Shown here: positions 862-53,255 of the stretch, piece after piece
Layout of the letters: every line of letters starts with the position of its first letter
How positions within the stretch are numbered: position 1 is the stretch's first letter
NCBI RefSeq assembly: GCF_004363235.1
Contig: NZ_SNYW01000006.1
Location: 186,001-250,000 of the forward strand
Reading direction: 5' to 3'
DNA: 64,000 nt
Source: Dongia mobilis
GTDB taxonomy: Bacteria; Pseudomonadota; Alphaproteobacteria; Dongiales; Dongiaceae
Position numbers and translations under genes: made by a program
Notes under the pieces: model-generated
Told to the model about the DNA's origin: nothing
Database searches by the model: none
Seen by the model: the letters and a program-made list of their open reading frames with translations, nothing else

Positions 862-2323
862 CATCATCGGCGATTGCGTGCGTGTGGCGCAGGCGGGCAG
901 CGGCATCGACAAGATCGTCGTTGCCGGCCTTACGGCCGACTCGCGCGCGGTCGGGCCGGGTTTCCTTTTTGCGGCGCTGGCCGGCGCCAAAGTCGACGGG
1001 CTCGCCTTTGTTGCCCAGGCAGTCGGCGCCGGTGCCGCAGTAATCCTGGTCGCCGCCGGGCAGAAGCCGGTGGTGCCGCCGCATGTCGCCGTGCTGGAAG
1101 CGGTGCAGCCGCGCCTTGCCCTGGCCAGGATCGCCGCGCGCTTCCATGCGCGCCAGCCCAACATCATCGCCGCCGTCACCGGCACCAGCGGCAAGACCTC
1201 GACCGCCGTCTTCACCCGCCAGATCTGGTCGCAGCTCGGCCACCGCGCCGCCAGTCTGGGCACGATCGGCCTGGTCGGCCCAGGCATCGAATATGGCGAA
1301 TCGCTGACCACGCCGGATCCGGTCAAGCTGCACCAATTGCTGGCCGAACTGGTGGATCACGACATCCATCACCTCGCCATGGAAGCCTCCAGCCACGGCC
1401 TCGACCAGTTCCGACTCGACGGCGTGCAGGTCTCGGCTGCGGCCTTCACCAACTTGTCGCGCGATCACCTCGATTATCACGGCGACATGGCAAGCTATCT
1501 GAAGGCCAAGCTCCGCCTGTTCGAGGAATTGCTGCCGGCGGGCGGTGCCGCCGTGGTCAATGCCGACATGGCGGAAGCCGCACGTGTCATCGAGATCGCC
1601 CGGGCGCGGCATCATCGCCTGATCACTTTCGGGCGCCGGCGCGGCGATATCCGCCTCGTGAAGCAGGTGCCGCTGGCGACCGGGCAGCAATTGCAGCTGG
1701 AGGTTTTCGGCCAGCGCTGCGACGCCACCTTCTCGGTGGCCGGGCTGTTCCAGGCCGAGAACCTGCTGGCCGCCCTCGGCCTCGTCATCGGCGCCGGCGA
1801 AAAGCCGGAAATGGCGGTTGCCATGATCGACCGCCTGACCGGCGTCCATGGCCGCATCGAGCGGGTGGCGACGACGCCATCGGGTGCCGCCGTCTATGTC
1901 GATTACGCGCACAAGCCGGCGGGTCTCGAGGCCGTCCTCGGCACGCTGCGGCCGCACACCACCGGCCGACTCGTCGTCGTTTTCGGCTGCGGCGGCGACC
2001 GCGATCGCGGCAAGCGGCCGGAAATGGGCGCGCTTGCGGTGCGTCTTGCCGACCGCGTCATCGTCACCGACGACAATCCACGCAGCGAGGATCCGGCCGC
2101 AATTCGGGCCGAAATTCTGGCGGCCGCACCGGGCGCCGTCGAGATCGGCGACCGTGCCCAGGCGATCCGGGCTGCCATGCATGAATTGAAGTCCGGCGAC
2201 GTGCTGGTAATCGCCGGCAAGGGCCACGAGACCTATCAGCTGGTCGGCGACCAGAAGTTCGATTTCGACGACAGCGAGGTGGCGCGCAACTGTGCTGCGG
2301 AACTGGCGCGAGGTGCGGCATGA
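848..2323 (+). CDS. murE: UDP-MurNAc-L-Ala-D-Glu:meso-diaminopimelate ligase
   Basis: Cytoplasmic Mur ligase adding the third stem-peptide residue (meso-DAP) to UDP-MurNAc-L-Ala-D-Glu with ATP. 491 residues, normal for MurE. The ATP loop GTSGKTS is at about residues 112-118. The DNPR motif at about 409-412 marks DAP rather than lysine specificity, as expected in a Gram-negative. The start is inferred to be TTG at 848: GAGGA at 835-839 sits 8 bases upstream, and the protein then begins MRLSDIIGDC. The in-frame extension further upstream is only a shadow of ftsI. It overlaps ftsI by 14 bases and murF by 4 (ATGA), so translation is likely coupled. Confidence 0.93.
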   Translation: MRLSDIIGDCVRVAQAGSGIDKIVVAGLTADSRAVGPGFLFAALAGAKVDGLAFVAQAVGAGAAVILVAAGQKPVVPPHVAVLEAVQPRLALARIAARFHARQPNIIAAVTGTSGKTSTAVFTRQIWSQLGHRAASLGTIGLVGPGIEYGESLTTPDPVKLHQLLAELVDHDIHHLAMEASSHGLDQFRLDGVQVSAAAFTNLSRDHLDYHGDMASYLKAKLRLFEELLPAGGAAVVNADMAEAARVIEIARARHHRLITFGRRRGDIRLVKQVPLATGQQLQLEVFGQRCDATFSVAGLFQAENLLAALGLVIGAGEKPEMAVAMIDRLTGVHGRIERVATTPSGAAVYVDYAHKPAGLEAVLGTLRPHTTGRLVVVFGCGGDRDRGKRPEMGALAVRLADRVIVTDDNPRSEDPAAIRAEILAAAPGAVEIGDRAQAIRAAMHELKSGDVLVIAGKGHETYQLVGDQKFDFDDSEVARNCAAELARGAA

Positions 2324-46862: not shown

Positions 46863-48060
46863 CGGCCCGTCGCTTGCGATACCAGGTGATGAGGGCGAGG
46901 ACCAGCAGATAGCCGACGAAGACGACGATCAGGCTGGCCGGGAATCCGTGCGGACCGAACAGATCCATGGCGACGCCGCACATGGCGGCACCGACCAGGG
47001 CGCCGAAACCCCACATGGTCGAGAAGGCCGCAGTGCCGGCGATGAGGTCGCGGCCCCTGAAGCGGTCGCCCAGCTCGGCCAGCCCCACCGTATAGATGCC
47101 GAAGCCGGCGGCGCCCGAGACCAGGGCCAGCGGCCAGATCCAGATCGTGTCGATCGCGGCCGGAAGCATGGCAAGGCAGATCACGGCGGTGATGAAGCAG
47201 CCCACCATCGTACCGCGCTTCGAGGTGCGGTCGGCGACCCAGCCGATCGGGATCTGGAAAAAGACGTTGCCGAGGGATAGTGCCGTGATGGTGAGGGCGG
47301 CAATGCTTTCGCTCATGCCGAAGCGCACGCCATAGACGGCGAGGAAGCCCAGCATGCCGCCGTCGAAGATGGCATGTACGACGATGGCGAGGAGCAGCAT
47401 CGGCGCCTTGGGCAGGAAGGAAAGCATCGAGACATGCGGCTCGTCCGCGGCGCGATCGGCGCTGTCCGATACCAGGCTGATCGGCAGGATGGCGAGGAAC
47501 AGGACCGCGGCACCGACCATGAAGGGCAGATAGCCCTCGATCCCGGTCCAGCTCACCACCGCGGCGCCGACGCCGAAAGTGGCCGAGATGCAGGTGGCAT
47601 AGATGCCGACCACGCGCCCGCGGATCTCGCCCTTGGCATTGGCGAGGACCCAGGCCTCGCTGAGGGCGAACAATGTCGCCACCGTGACGCCCTGCAGCAG
47701 GCGCAGCGGGAACCACGCCCAGAGGTCGGGAAAGGTCGGGTAAAGCAGGAAGATGGTACCCGTCGCCCCGGCCATGAACATGGCGACGCGGCGGCCGCCG
47801 AACATGTGGGAGAGGCGCGGGATGATGAGTCCGGCCAGCAGGATGCCGATGGGCGCCATCGCCGTGTTGATGCCGATGACGGCCTCGCTCACCCCCCAGC
47901 TTTCCATGTTGAGGGCGAGGAGCGGAAACATCTCGCCGAGCGAAAATGAGAAGACGCAGACCGCGGCGCAGGCGGCAATCAGGGTGCGCCAGTTGATCTG
48001 TTCGGCCTTCATGCCGGGGGAAGTGACGCCTGGGGAAGTCAAGCCTGGGCTCCGCAGCAT
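46849..48060 (-). CDS. MFS transporter (YcaD-like)
   Basis: 403 residues with 12 predicted transmembrane helices. Stretches such as [63 protein letters not shown] and [16 protein letters not shown] match the YcaD/sugar-efflux-like group. The substrate cannot be read. The start is uncertain. From ATG 48060 the first residues contain a repeated SPG(L/V)TSPG stretch with no ribosome-binding site; ATG 48012 ([11 protein letters not shown]) would start directly before helix 1 and may be the true start. Confidence 0.85.
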
Positions 48061-48191
48061 TGGAAATGACGAAAGGCGAAGCCGTTCTGTCGATGGGCGT
48101 CACCCTGCCTGAACGGCGGTTCAATTTCCAGTGCGATGGATCGCGCTATGCAGTGGCGGCGCAGCGCGCATGCGCGCCCTGCGTGGCAGCA

Positions 48192-48986
48192 CTAATCGCC
48201 GGCCGTCTGCACACGATCGGCCGGCGGCGCATCGGGCTCCAGGCCGGCGATCTCAAGGATCATCTTCTGCCGGAGCGCGCGGGCGAAATCGGCGCGGTCG
48301 GTGGCGGTCATGACGAAGGCGGCGAAGCCGCCAATCACGTTGGCCTGGTAGTTCTCCACCAGCCAGGGCTGGCCGCCGGTACCCAGCCCGCCATCATTGA
48401 GGATGGCCAGCGCGTTGATCGTGATGCGTGCCGCCACGGCGGCGTCGCGCGCCAGCGGTGCCGGCATTTGGCTGCGGTTGTCCGGATTGTCGCCGGAGAC
48501 ATCAATGACGCGACGGGTCGGGCGGCAGGGGCACTGGGCAATGAGGGCGGTCGACAGCGCGATCGCATCGCCAAGCGCGTTATAGCTCTGCGACGACCTT
48601 TCCGCGCCCAGCACGGTGACCGCAAAATCCTCGGCCGTGGCGGTATCGCCCACCAGCATCCAGTCGACCACGATCTGGGCGTTGGCCGGTCCGCCCCATT
48701 CGACATAGGCGATGGCGATGCGGCCGTGCCGACCCTCGGTGATCGCGGCCAGCACTTCGTCATTGGTGATGGCGGCGGCGATGCCTTCCTTCTGCAACTG
48801 GAACTCGGCAGGCGAAATGCTGCCGGACGCATCCACCGCCAGGACCAGGGCGACATCGACGGCGGTGGCCTCTTGGGCCCGCAGCGGGCTGCCGTGCCCT
48901 GACATGACGGCCAGCGCCGCGGCGACAGCGAGCATCAGCATGGGCAATGCATACCGGATCTTCTGGTCGGCGCGGTACCACCCCAT
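48192..48986 (-). CDS. DUF1194 exported von Willebrand factor A-like protein
   Basis: 264 residues. N-terminal hydrophobic segment about 11-29 (signal peptide or anchor), then a vWA fold with the MIDAS motif DASGS at 52-56 and SGDNPDNR as the later metal-site strand. YVEWGGPANAQIVVDWMLV and WLVENYQANVIGGFAAFVM are DUF1194 signatures. vWA folds bind proteins in a metal-dependent way; partners here are unknown. It lies just downstream of the hairpin-rich intergenic region on the same strand, but a terminator separates the two. Confidence 0.9.
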   Translation of the reverse strand: MGWYRADQKIRYALPMLMLAVAAALAVMSGHGSPLRAQEATAVDVALVLAVDASGSISPAEFQLQKEGIAAAITNDEVLAAITEGRHGRIAIAYVEWGGPANAQIVVDWMLVGDTATAEDFAVTVLGAERSSQSYNALGDAIALSTALIAQCPCRPTRRVIDVSGDNPDNRSQMPAPLARDAAVAARITINALAILNDGGLGTGGQPWLVENYQANVIGGFAAFVMTATDRADFARALRQKMILEIAGLEPDAPPADRVQTAGD

Positions 48987-49144
48987 GGACCTACCTCCGC
49001 ATCATTCGATCGCGAGCGGGGTATTGTGGGGCACCTTGCCGGGACTGGCCAGACATAGCTGACCGGGGCTGACCGGGCATCGCCAAACGGTCAGGCGGAG
49101 GTCCTGGCGGGAGGGTTCTAGTGGGCGGGGGACGCGTCGCGGCC

Positions 49145-49174
49145 AAAAAAATTGCCGGGCACGAGGCCCGGCAA
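49145..49174 (-). terminator. Intrinsic terminator of the hairpin array
   Basis: On the - strand a perfect 9-pair stem (TTGCCGGGC, loop CTCGT, GCCCGGCAA; 49152-49174) is followed by seven T (49145-49151). The T tract fixes the direction of transcription as leftward. Confidence 0.85.
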
Positions 49175-49250
49175 GTTAAACAGGGAGGCTTTACGTCTGG
49201 GAGACGTAGGGTCCGAAGACCCCATCCGGGCATCGCGCCCGAATTCGATG

Positions 49251-49322
49251 TGAAGCTTGCGCTTCGAAACTCGCTGGAGCATCTGCTCCGAAACTCGGTG
49301 AAGCTTGCGCTTCGAAATCCTT
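49251..49322. repeat. Three tandem 24-base units, each a stem-loop
   Basis: Units begin at 49251, 49275 and 49299. Units 1 and 3 have stem GAAGC/GCTTC with loop TTGC; unit 2 has GGAGC/GCTCC with loop ATCT. An A-T pair is replaced by G-C on both arms, so pairing is kept while sequence changes. The spacer after each stem reads GAAACTCG in units 1 and 2 and GAAATCCT in unit 3. Confidence 0.9.
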
Positions 49323-49914
49323 ACCCGCGATCACCGCGCCATCATCTCTTTGCCAGGATCACTCTGGCTGGAAATTGTGGCTGCATCGTGACTCGTCAAC
49401 CGTGCGAACCATTAAAGATTCAAACTGTAACTTCCGTGCAACAGTGTGGCTGTCGGGCACGGCGGCAGGATAGAGCATTCGCGCCCCCTAACCAGAGTCA
49501 AATTCACAGACGCGGCATGCGCCACTTGCATATCGTTGATAGTTAAATTTTTCAATTAGTTACATCTATGTGGCGGGACATTGTGCAGTGCGGGCGATTC
49601 TGTCGCAGGCCGGCGCGATTGCCAATTTCACCGACCTCTGACAGCCGCGGGACTGTTGCAGCCATGAATTCCCTATCGACTCGGCAGAGTTTTCGAATCA
49701 CGACTTTTCTGTCGTTCCCGGGCCAGATGAGCCCAATTCATCACATGTTTGGCCGCCGCGGCCGACTTCCCGGATTTGGCTGACATCCCGGAACCGGCTT
49801 GCCGGAAAACGGATCGACCCCATCTAACTAGACACCCGCGCGGGAACCCGCCTTCTCGGCTGACCCGCCATGGCGGCCGTCTTCAACCCAGGCATGCGAG
49901 GAGCAGCCCGCTAC

Positions 49915-50160
49915 ATGATCTACCTGATCGCGCTCATTTTCCCGCCACTGGCTTTGCTGCTCTACGGCAAGATCTTCCAGGCGATCTTCAACCTGCTGAT
50001 CTATGTGCTGGCCTGGGTCGTCTTCATCTTCAGCCTCTTCCTCGGCGGCTCGCCCGGCTTCGTCATCTGGCTGATCGCAGCGGCCCACGCCATCCTCGTC
50101 ATCAACAACGAGAAGAAGCAGAGGCAGATGGAGGCGCTGCTGGCCGGACGCCGGGGCTGA
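49915..50160 (+). CDS. Small YqaE/Pmp3-like membrane protein
   Basis: 81 residues from ATG 49915, almost entirely hydrophobic: IYLIALIFPPLALLLYGKIFQAIFN, then a second and third helix ending in a basic tail NNEKKQRQMEALLAGRRG. The FPPLALLLYGK stretch resembles the UPF0057/PMP3 family of small stress-associated membrane proteins. ATG 49915 places the first helix at the N-terminus, with AGGAG about 11 bases upstream; in-frame ATGs at 49870 and 49891 would add a hydrophilic extension without a clear ribosome-binding site. Function uncertain. Confidence 0.65.
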   Translation: MIYLIALIFPPLALLLYGKIFQAIFNLLIYVLAWVVFIFSLFLGGSPGFVIWLIAAAHAILVINNEKKQRQMEALLAGRRG

Positions 50161-50317
50161 CCGAGGCCACCGGCGCCACGCACCGCGGGGCGATTGGCGC
50201 CGGATATTCACGCGAGGTTCGCGCGGGCGTCAGCCTGCTATCACCTGCAATATGCTCATTGGTCGCCCATAAAGGGCGGCGCGCTATGGCTGCCGCCGGA
50301 ACAGTCGGAGCCAATTC

Positions 50318-51016
50318 GTGCCATTTCCCGCCGCAACCCCAGCCGGAGATCAAACCGGTACCGCTAGAAGTGTTTGGGAGCAGGCGCGGCAGTCCGTGTT
50401 GCCGGCCTGCCGCCGCACCGTCCTTCGTGTCCTCATTGGCTGCCTGGCGGTCGGCGCACTGACCTGCGCCGCCGCGGCAATCGGCAACGAGTTGGACGAG
50501 GCCCACGCCATTGCCAGCCTGCGGCAGGGCGGTTACGTCGTCTATCTGCGCCATGCCGACCGCCATAAGGGACCAAAGGAAAAACTCGATCGATTCTCCT
50601 CGCCGGCGGAATTCGCCGATTGCAGCCAGCAGCGCAACCTGAACAACAGGGGCCGGGCGCAGGCCTGGGATATCGGCGTCTATATGCGCCGACTTGGCAT
50701 CGTGTTCGACCGCGTCATCGCCAATGCGCAATGCCGTACGCGCGACACCGCGTTGCTCGCCTTCGGCCGCGCTGATCTCGAGCCACGCGTCTACGACCCG
50801 GCATTCGTCGCGCAGGTCCTGTCGAGCAAGCCGCCTGCAGGCAGCAATACGATCGTCATCGGCAACGACTTCCAGTTCCTGGAATTGACCGGCATCCAGC
50901 TGGGACGGGCGGATGCGGCGGTGATCCGTCCCGATGGCGCGGGTGGATTTGCGGTATTGGCCAAGCTCGAACTCGAGGATTGGCGCGAGGCAGCCGATCG
51001 ACCCTTCCTGTGGTAA
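50318..51016 (+). CDS. Exported histidine-phosphatase-superfamily protein
   Basis: 232 residues. Hydrophobic segment about 35-54 suggests export. The core has YVVYLRHADRHKG (catalytic Arg78-His79 of the RHG motif), NNRGRAQAWDIGVYMRRLGI and CRTRDTALLAFG, as in phosphoglycerate-mutase-like phosphatases. The second catalytic His of the superfamily is not evident: the equivalent strand reads NTIVIGNDFQF, so activity may be altered or absent. GTG 50318 is chosen because GGAG lies 7 bases upstream, giving a long N-terminus before the hydrophobic segment. Confidence 0.7.
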   Translation: MPFPAATPAGDQTGTARSVWEQARQSVLPACRRTVLRVLIGCLAVGALTCAAAAIGNELDEAHAIASLRQGGYVVYLRHADRHKGPKEKLDRFSSPAEFADCSQQRNLNNRGRAQAWDIGVYMRRLGIVFDRVIANAQCRTRDTALLAFGRADLEPRVYDPAFVAQVLSSKPPAGSNTIVIGNDFQFLELTGIQLGRADAAVIRPDGAGGFAVLAKLELEDWREAADRPFLW

Positions 51017-51045: not shown

Positions 51046-51948
51046 TCAGCCCTGCATGCGCCCTTCGGCGACCTTGCGCAGCAGGAAATCGCGGAAGACC
51101 TGGATGCGCTTGGAATTGCGCAGCTCTTCCGGATAGACGAAATAGGCGTCGATGCGCGGCCCCTGCAGTTCCGGGAGGACGCGCACCAGGCTGGTCCCTT
51201 CGCTCACCATGAATTCCGGCAGGCTGGCAAGACCCAATCCGCTCTGTACCGCCCGCAGGATGGCATAGACCGAATTCACCTTGAGGATCGGCCGGCGCGG
51301 CTTGTCCTTGCGCGTGCCGGCGACCAGCAGCCAGTCCATATCCTCGACCGGCGGGCGCGTGTCATTGCCGTAGACAATGATGCGATGCTGGTCGAGATCC
51401 TCCGGCACCTTCGGAATGCCGTGGCGCTTTAGATAGGCGGGCGCCGCATAGATATTGAGATGCACCGTCATCAGGTGGCGCTGGATGAGTTCCGGCTGGC
51501 GCGGCGGCGCCATGCGGATGGCGACATCGGCCTCGCGCATGGAGAGATCAAGCTCGCGGTCCTCGAGGACCAGATCGACCTCGACATCCGGATATAGGTC
51601 GATGAATTCCAGCAGGCAGGGGGTGAGCCAGGACGAGCCGAACGCCTGGGTCGCCGTCACCTTCAACTGGCCCTTGGGCCGATCCTTGGACTCGGCCAGT
51701 TGCGCCTCGGCCATGGCCAGCTTCGAGAACACTTCATGCGCCGTGCGATAGAGCAGTTCGCCCTGTTCGGTGAGGATGAGGCCGCGCGCATGGCGATGGA
51801 AGAGGGCCACATTGAGGCTCTCCTCCAGCGAGGAAATCTGGCGCGACACCGCTGACTGGCTGAGATTCAGCACCTCGCCGGCATGGGTGAAGGACCCAGC
51901 CTCGGCAACTGCGTGAAAGATCCGGAGTTTGTCCCAGTCCATCTTCAT
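51046..51948 (-). CDS. LysR family transcriptional regulator
   Basis: 300 residues. Winged helix-turn-helix at the N-terminus (LRIFHAVAEAGSFTHAGEVLNLSQSAVSRQISSLEE) and a periplasmic-binding-protein-like effector domain from about residue 93 (GQLKVTATQAFGSSWLTPCLLEF). Two nearby ATG codons (51948 and 51942) could start it. It lies 91 bases downstream of trxB on the same strand, a pairing seen in other alphaproteobacteria. Its target and ligand are not known from the sequence. Confidence 0.92.
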   Translation of the reverse strand: MKMDWDKLRIFHAVAEAGSFTHAGEVLNLSQSAVSRQISSLEESLNVALFHRHARGLILTEQGELLYRTAHEVFSKLAMAEAQLAESKDRPKGQLKVTATQAFGSSWLTPCLLEFIDLYPDVEVDLVLEDRELDLSMREADVAIRMAPPRQPELIQRHLMTVHLNIYAAPAYLKRHGIPKVPEDLDQHRIIVYGNDTRPPVEDMDWLLVAGTRKDKPRRPILKVNSVYAILRAVQSGLGLASLPEFMVSEGTSLVRVLPELQGPRIDAYFVYPEELRNSKRIQVFRDFLLRKVAEGRMQG

Positions 51949-52039: not shown

Positions 52040-53008
52040 CTATTCCGCCGCCTGGGCCGTTTCGTGTTCATGGGCGGCCAGGAAGCGCTCGGCCTCCAAT
52101 GCTGCCATGCAACCCATGCCGGCGGCAGTGACTGCCTGGCGATAGACCTTGTCCTTGACATCGCCGGCGGCGAAGACCCCGGGCACGTCCGTCGCGGTGC
52201 TGTCCGGCTTGGTCAACAGATAGCCCTCGGCATCAAGCGGCAACTTGCCCTTGAACAACTCGGTCGCCGGCGAATGACCGATCGCCACGAAGAGGCCATC
52301 GGCGGGAATGCTGGTGACCTCGCCGTTCTTGACGTTCTTCACCTTGACGGCGCTAACGCCGATCGGGTCGTCGGTGCCGACGACTTCCTCGACTACCGAA
52401 TCCCAGACCACCTTGATCTTCGGGTTGCGGAACAGGCGCTCCTGCATGATCTTCTCGGCACGGAAGCTGTCGCGGCGATGGACCACTGTTACCTTGCTGG
52501 CGTGGTTGGTGAGGTAGATCGCCTCCTCGACCGCCGTGTTGCCGCCACCCACCAGCACCACTTCCTTCTCGCGGAAGAAAAAGCCGTCGCAGGTGGCGCA
52601 AGCGGACACGCCGAAGCCGCGGAATTTCTGTTCCGAGGGCAGACCCAGCCATTTCGCCTGGGCGCCGGTCGCGATGATCAGCGTCTCGGCCACATAGACA
52701 TCGCCGGAATCGCCGGTGGCGCGGAACGGGCGGCGGCTGAGATCGACATCGACGATGGTGTCGAACATCATCCGCGTTCCCACATGCTCGGCCTGTTTCT
52801 GCATCTGCTCCATCAGCCAGGGGCCCTGGATGACATCGGCAAAGCCGGGATAATTCTCCACATCGGTGGTGATGGTCATCTGCCCGCCAGGCTGCAGGCC
52901 CTGTACCAGCACCGGTTTGAGGTTGGCGCGCGCGGTATAGATCGCCGCCGTATAGCCGGCCGGTCCGGAACCGATGATGAGGGCCTTGGTGTGGATTTCC
53001 TGGGTCAT
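52040..53008 (-). CDS. trxB: Thioredoxin-disulfide reductase
   Basis: FAD/NADPH flavoenzyme keeping thioredoxin reduced. 322 residues. FAD-binding IIGSGPAGYTAAIYTARA at 11-28, redox-active Cys137 and Cys140 in SACATCDGFFF, NADPH-binding VVLVGGGNTAVEEA, and C-terminal PGVFAAGDVKDKVYRQAVTAAGMGC. ATG 53008 is preferred because AGGA lies 8 bases upstream; an ATG at 53020 is too close to any such site. A promoter is visible about 90 bases upstream. Confidence 0.96.
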   Translation of the reverse strand: MTQEIHTKALIIGSGPAGYTAAIYTARANLKPVLVQGLQPGGQMTITTDVENYPGFADVIQGPWLMEQMQKQAEHVGTRMMFDTIVDVDLSRRPFRATGDSGDVYVAETLIIATGAQAKWLGLPSEQKFRGFGVSACATCDGFFFREKEVVLVGGGNTAVEEAIYLTNHASKVTVVHRRDSFRAEKIMQERLFRNPKIKVVWDSVVEEVVGTDDPIGVSAVKVKNVKNGEVTSIPADGLFVAIGHSPATELFKGKLPLDAEGYLLTKPDSTATDVPGVFAAGDVKDKVYRQAVTAAGMGCMAALEAERFLAAHEHETAQAAE

Positions 53009-53100
53009 GGCGGCGCGCATCCTGGGGCGTTCGGGCTTGGCAATGGGCTGGCTCCGGCGATTCCTGGCGGGGACTCGGGATACTTCCAGCGCGTCTATAG

Positions 53101-53129
53101 AGAATAGAGATCGCCAAGCCTGATTCCAA
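53101..53129 (-). promoter_or_regulatory. Sigma-70-type promoter of trxB
   Basis: On the - strand TTGGAA (53124-53129) and TATTCT (53101-53106) are separated by 17 bases. The predicted start near 53094 gives a leader of about 86 bases to trxB. Confidence 0.5.
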
Positions 53130-53255
53130 GCCATGCGGATCGGGAATAGCTGGAAAAATCTACCCGAAAATCCAAGAAGTTCCGATGGTTTGAGCTATGC
53201 ATCGGGGACGAAAGGACAATTTCGCCCGCACTGGTGCAGGGGGCAGCGGCCGCTG

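Follow-up and report, generated by a model that had tools for sequence, protein, structure and literature searches.

The window, the whole stretch of 64,000 nucleotides of Dongia mobilis DNA analysed here, carries on its minus strand the trxB gene for thioredoxin-disulfide reductase (52040-53134; TIGR01292, 409.7 bits, over the cut-off), a LysR-type regulator gene (51046-51948) and, further on, a DUF1194 gene (48192-48986). An array of hairpins at 49145-49335 (minus strand) lies between the last two. Two plus-strand ORFs separate it from the LysR gene, one of 232 aa (50318-51016) with NCBIfam matches below the cut-off and one of 96 aa (49870-50160), which is hydrophobic and stands near the RNA in relatives too. 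The 96-aa ORF matched no Pfam or NCBIfam family, and a YqaE label considered for it was dropped for lack of support in either collection.

The original prediction described this array as seven consecutive stem-loops, one with a TTCG tetraloop and the last followed by seven T on the minus strand, and took it for a candidate small RNA, structured and ending in a terminator. An independent count (stems of at least 5 pairs, loops of 3-8 nt) found exactly seven perfect, non-overlapping stem-loops in 49145-49335, with stem lengths of 5, 5, 5, 5, 5, 7 and 9 and one TTCG loop. Dinucleotide shuffles of the same segment (n = 1000) gave a mean of 1.07 and a maximum of 4 stem-loops, and seven were reached in 0 of 335 consecutive 191-nt segments across the 64 kb. 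Such arrays are customary at this locus: in 140 loci the last 202 nt held 1 to 7 perfect hairpins, most commonly 4. The minus-strand fold has an energy of -97.8 kcal/mol (z -2.78), and the plus strand is almost as structured (z -2.45); because both strands fold better than shuffles, the strand was assigned from the T run and from conservation.

The terminator (49145-49174) consists of a hairpin at 49174-49152 followed by TTTTTTT at 49151-49145. Including this one, 48000-50500 holds two terminator-like sites, compared with an average of 1.8 in shuffles. The DUF1194 gene starts at 48986, 159 nt past it and on the same strand, as predicted (about 160 bases). From this position the RNA might be read as an untranslated leader or attenuator of DUF1194, which we regard as very improbable: the terminator stands between the two, and among the matches listed DUF1194 adjoins the RNA at the window's own locus only.

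Read 5' to 3' on the minus strand, the array begins with a 24-nt hairpin unit in three tandem copies (49250-49317; hairpins at 49300-49313, 49276-49289 and 49252-49265), compared with a single copy in the five genus relatives aligned. The stem of the middle copy is preserved by a paired change, from GAAGC/GCTTC to GGAGC/GCTCC. The hairpin CGGGCGCGATGCCCG (49227-49241), the UUCG-tetraloop hairpin GGGTCTTCGGACCC (49209-49222), recognized by the stem-loop count and the family alignment, and a 7-pair hairpin displaying a first seed, UCCCA (49192-49208), come next. A second seed, GCCUCCCUGU (49180-49189), is unpaired according to the fold and the alignment, and is followed by the terminator.

A search of 61 genomes (relatives and D. 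mobilis itself) with a 266-nt stretch found the 3' part in the genus, the family and the class; class-wide, only the 3' core is kept, namely the hairpin with the loop UCCCA, the unpaired GCCUCCCUGU and the terminator. In an alignment of 46 sequences this core reads TACGTC-TCCCA-GACGT-RAAGCCTCCCTGT-linker-terminator, 24 of the rows being products of an exact-pattern scan, so that the invariance of their core is by construction. A covariance model built from 18 sequences, R1, found one strong place in the D. mobilis genome (84.7 bits) and matched at E <=0.01 in all 17 family genomes, strongly in 15; the weak matches were in G007, where the match is the alphaR8 gene, and in G011 (28.0 bits). Across the class, R1 matched at E <=0.01 in 156 of 289 genomes and at E <=1e-8 in 118 of 289, matches weaker than E 1e-8 including other RNAs and bare terminators. 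Among the matches listed, the core also occurs in the named genera Azospirillum, Thalassospira and Reyranella. The named loci (L038-L156, at least 119 listed) come from the exact-pattern scan, their core thus being invariant by construction, and the loci counted are not independent, some records recurring.

The stems of the core show paired changes. When 62 distinct class-wide rows were fitted to R1 (alignment A5, which includes 8 of the 18 sequences that built the model), 97.1% of cells paired and 11 of 13 core pairs were changed on both sides, a number reached by 0 of 500 shuffles; the stems of the terminator and of the UCCCA hairpin both show pair changes. A MAFFT alignment of 14 family sequences showed both-side changes in 9 of 32 pairs, including three in the 5' hairpin and four of the nine pairs of the CGGGCGCGATGCCCG helix. 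The 5' hairpins are thus kept as structures within the family, and the TTCG and UCCCA hairpins barely vary there and therefore give little information at that level. Together with a conserved upstream element, described below, conservation and paired changes give good support to the prediction that the minus strand encodes a structured small RNA ending in a terminator of its own.

Other R1 matches were seen in the same genome. L158 (G000:C1:490990-491065, minus strand), a second RNA-like locus outside the window, scores 28.9 bits with R1 and combines a CUCUCC-loop hairpin, GCCTCCCTGTCTAACTTGCC and a terminator; several genus genomes likewise have a second match of similar score. Two further hits, L159 and L160, were judged by eye to be ends of coding genes with terminators and were rejected. 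Elsewhere, genome G222 has seven R1 matches, and at L030 (genome G044) a sul1 RNA match of 35.3 bits (cut-off 36.2; 1417-1469, minus strand) lies opposite the hairpins upstream of the core.

The RNA gene is commonly found behind the LysR gene. The relation was analyzed in 80 genomes, those with a LysR place (121 of 193 genomes) plus an R1 place among the matches listed. In 59 of them R1 followed the LysR gene on the same strand at a distance of 149-480 nt (median 215). In 7 more, the genus of D. mobilis among them, it did so at 1.7-5.6 kb; the distance in D. mobilis itself, where the two plus-strand ORFs intervene, is 1.84 kb. In the remaining 14, R1 was unlinked to the best LysR hit; in three of these (G038, G156 and G236) a match to the SorX model follows the LysR gene instead, at distances of 108, 137 and 318 nt, and these RNAs score up to 62.1 bits with SorY and 52.3 bits with SorX. 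For the named loci, a LysR gene was present within 1 kb upstream in 86 of the 102 with at least 700 nt of upstream sequence and absent in 16, a further 17 being too short upstream for this count. Twenty regions downstream of LysR genes without a listed R1 match gave R1 at E <=0.001 in five (L222, L223, L225, L229 and L235), and ten further regions gave five positives (L241-L245), of which four were already known. In L244 (genome G165) three tandem R1 copies follow the LysR gene (453-521, 752-819 and 983-1049, plus strand). By eye, L225, L236 and L224 carry hairpins with CTCC-type loops behind the LysR gene; L224 and L236 have no strong R1 match, and these arrays possibly represent the same kind of RNA in diverged form.

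Upstream of the RNA, a LysR-type palindromic box, TATGCA-N6-GCATG (49516-49532, minus strand), is conserved in the six genus sequences aligned, and in the window it has remained with the RNA. Of 136 upstream regions (360 nt each), 92 contained the palindrome YATGCR-N6-GCATR. A looser form occurred in 92 of 138 upstream regions (330 nt) but in just 6 of 140 downstream ones; when the set was shuffled 200 times (mononucleotide shuffles), the mean was 2.0 and the maximum 7. A probable -10 element, TATCCT (49467-49472, minus strand), is spaced constantly relative to the box in the aligned genus sequences, and a box-anchored profile also places it at a fixed distance (columns +61, +62 and +65). In the S. 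meliloti abcR1 promoter, the LsrB consensus GCAT-N3-TG-N3-T is placed at -61 to -49 (PMC8844928). The columns from the right half of the box onward agree partially with that consensus and, counted from the start proposed below, would lie at about -60 to -48. The exact consensus was present in 26 of 136 upstream versus 3 of 139 downstream regions and coincided with the right half of the palindrome in 17; the window has GC in place of TG.

From the box, the -10 element and the terminator, we infer a transcript of about 315 nt (49146-49460, minus strand) that would start near 49460. The original prediction had proposed another promoter, TTGACG-N17-AATTTC (49399-49371, minus strand), and an RNA of 180-220 nt. 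Both hexamers and their spacing exist; among 14 family loci, however, the string is present in the window's own alone, it was not reported by a promoter scan of the region, and the box and -10 element conserved in the genus sit further upstream. That this is the real promoter is improbable, and so is the length of 180-220 nt that goes with it.

A different question is whether the longer transcript is processed to a short functional RNA of about 65-130 nt from its 3' end, with the 5' array as precursor material of little function. The class-wide retention of the 3' core only and the variable number of upstream hairpins (1 to 7 per 202 nt in 140 loci) fit such processing, for which SorX offers a precedent, being described as a 75-nt RNA that RNase E releases from a 3' UTR (PMC6238624). 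The promoter element is, however, close and conserved, and the paired changes in the 5' hairpins within the family argue that these are kept as structures. We consider a short product possible, if on the whole rather unlikely; it is compatible with the reading of the locus as a LysR-linked small RNA gene and does not exclude it.

The protein encoded by 51046-51948 contains LysR domains (Pfam), and its best PDB match was 9hh1 (338.9 bits; next PDB entry, 134.8 bits), deposited as Agrobacterium LsrB (PMC11975290). This closeness, judged from similarity rather than from a tree, and the neighbouring trxB gene make it LsrB/VtlR-like and, with its linkage to the RNA, the probable activator. C144 and C273 are named as conserved cysteines of LsrB and held to be redox sensors in Agrobacterium (PMC11975290). 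Valine occupies both aligned positions in the protein encoded here, and redox sensing through these cysteines is therefore not expected; its single cysteine is residue 111. The protein had no match in viral contigs.

The original prediction had recognised no known RNA family and had proposed an Rfam search. When the whole window was searched, only a tRNA scored over its cut-off, in agreement with that statement; with lax thresholds, however, three family models matched the 3' part below their cut-offs, namely SorX (RF02784; 44.8 of 46.6 bits, E 1.4e-9, 49147-49213, minus strand), SorY (RF02651; 25.3 bits, cut-off 111) and suhB/mmgR (RF00519; 23.8 bits, cut-off 41).

In organization the RNA resembles AbcR. 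The gene lies behind trxB and an LsrB/VtlR gene, as in the trxB-vtlR-abcR order (PMC7486931), within 480 nt of the LysR gene in 59 of 80 genomes and at 1.84 kb in the window. A LysR-type box lies upstream and two anti-Shine-Dalgarno motifs are present, where AbcR is described with an LsrB box, LsrB control and two such motifs (PMC8844928), and the candidate targets are chiefly ABC-importer genes. In AbcR, one hairpin is described as carrying CUCCCA, and a further motif, GUUCCC, as lying between hairpins (PMC5461406). In the window, CTCCCA is found inside TACGTCTCCCAGACGTA, and GCCTCCCTGT stands where GUUCCC would be expected, the second motif being GCCUCCCUGU. The window RNA further differs in its longer 5' hairpin domain and in its predicted length of about 315 nt, compared with the three hairpins given for AbcR (PMC3712013). 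The AbcR/alpha-r15 model RF02345 had no match up to E 10 in 48980-49700 and scored over its cut-off in 0 of 241 genomes, D. mobilis included; membership by covariance model was thus rejected, and the RNA was not filed as AbcR.

SorX is the nearest family by score, although its cut-off is not reached and its gene context is different. It shares with SorX and SorY the seed CCUCCCUGUU followed by a terminator (44.8 and 25.3 bits), and the RNAs behind the LysR gene in the three genomes mentioned above match their models. Transporter genes are reported as their targets, a spermidine transporter subunit for SorX and a malate transporter for SorY (PMC8307010). Both cut-offs were missed, that of SorX narrowly, and SorX membership was rejected. 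SorX is described as originating in an OmpR-like gene's 3' UTR (PMC6238624), whereas here no minus-strand gene lies directly upstream and the LysR gene is 1.84 kb away.

With the alphaR8 RNAs (MmgR, SisA-D) the window RNA has in common an anti-Shine-Dalgarno seed, CCUCCC, and a terminator, and the suhB/mmgR model gives the 23.8 bits noted above. An identity with alphaR8 is nevertheless the least probable of the readings considered, and we give it hardly any credence: the cut-off of 41 was not reached, and the seed UUUCCUCCCU and FGase neighbour described for alphaR8 (PMC12559287) set the two apart, AAGCCTCCCT occupying the place of that 10-mer in the window RNA. Moreover, each of the 11 family genomes searched has a separate alphaR8 gene that exceeds the cut-off. 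That of D. mobilis (L215, G000:C1:733495-733570, minus strand; 57.1 bits) lies near an FGase gene outside the window. The SmelA075/SmelA099 type likewise consists of hairpin arrays with anti-Shine-Dalgarno motifs (PMC3927594); there every loop is described with CCUCCUCCC, in contrast to the single seed-bearing loop of the window RNA.

Candidate targets were sought through ACAGGGAGG, the complement of the unpaired seed. Placed 3-10 nt before an ATG, it gave 23 rows, representing 22 sites, across five genus genomes, versus 3 for the pattern read backwards. After 3 sites with ORFs <100 aa were dropped, Pfam assigned 13 of 19 ORFs to ABC importers, 12 as solute-binding proteins and one as a permease, including 2 of 3 in the D. 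mobilis genome. The control, GGGAGG with another 5' extension, comprised the first 30 of 445 places, of which 11 were dropped for ORFs <100 aa, and yielded 4 of 19, with an ABC-2 membrane protein left uncounted; one dropped control ORF (L284, 93 aa) looks by eye like part of an ABC ATPase. A one-sided Fisher test of the difference gave P = 0.004, and P = 0.024 with orthologues merged by eye (9 of 15 versus 4 of 19), in a small test whose control sites have a core that also fits the seed. These results are suggestive of ABC-importer genes as the chief candidate targets. In genome G005 (site L273), the seed complement precedes the start of a DUF1194 gene; DUF1194 is also the downstream neighbour of the RNA in the window, a coincidence possibly due to chance.

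Taken as a whole, the sequence evidence makes us fairly confident that the locus encodes a small RNA of the anti-Shine-Dalgarno type known from alphaproteobacteria, with an LsrB/VtlR-like LysR regulator as its linked neighbour and probable activator. We call the RNA an uncatalogued member of these small RNAs, and LsrB-type control is most likely its input. The LysR regulator would bind the box, transcription would start near 49460, and Hfq would hold the RNA through the U tail present at its 3' end. Both seeds, UCCCA on its 7-pair hairpin and the unpaired GCCUCCCUGU, may then pair with ribosome sites of the GGGAGG type, chiefly on ABC-importer mRNAs, and the pairing would block translation or speed decay. 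No seed is present in the hairpins further 5', of which one is tripled here; their role would be to protect or space the RNA.

Duplication of hairpin modules is suggested by the tripled 24-nt unit of the window RNA and by the tandem array of three RNA copies in G165. We tentatively propose, as plausible though short of probable, that AbcR, SorX/SorY and the window RNA stem from one ancestral small RNA gene behind trxB-lsrB and that its hairpin modules evolve by tandem duplication. In the literature consulted, no description of such an RNA in Rhodospirillales was recognised, and a small-RNA survey of Azospirillum brasilense (PMC7685610) could hold it unnamed. LsrB has been called unique to Rhizobiales in a 2025 paper (PMC11975290); the present data do not side with that statement, and they add an RNA to the regulator. 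The regulator-RNA pair known from rhizobia and brucellae would thereby extend across much of the class, and if the proposal of common ancestry is true, the LsrB-driven anti-Shine-Dalgarno RNA would be an ancient circuit of that class.
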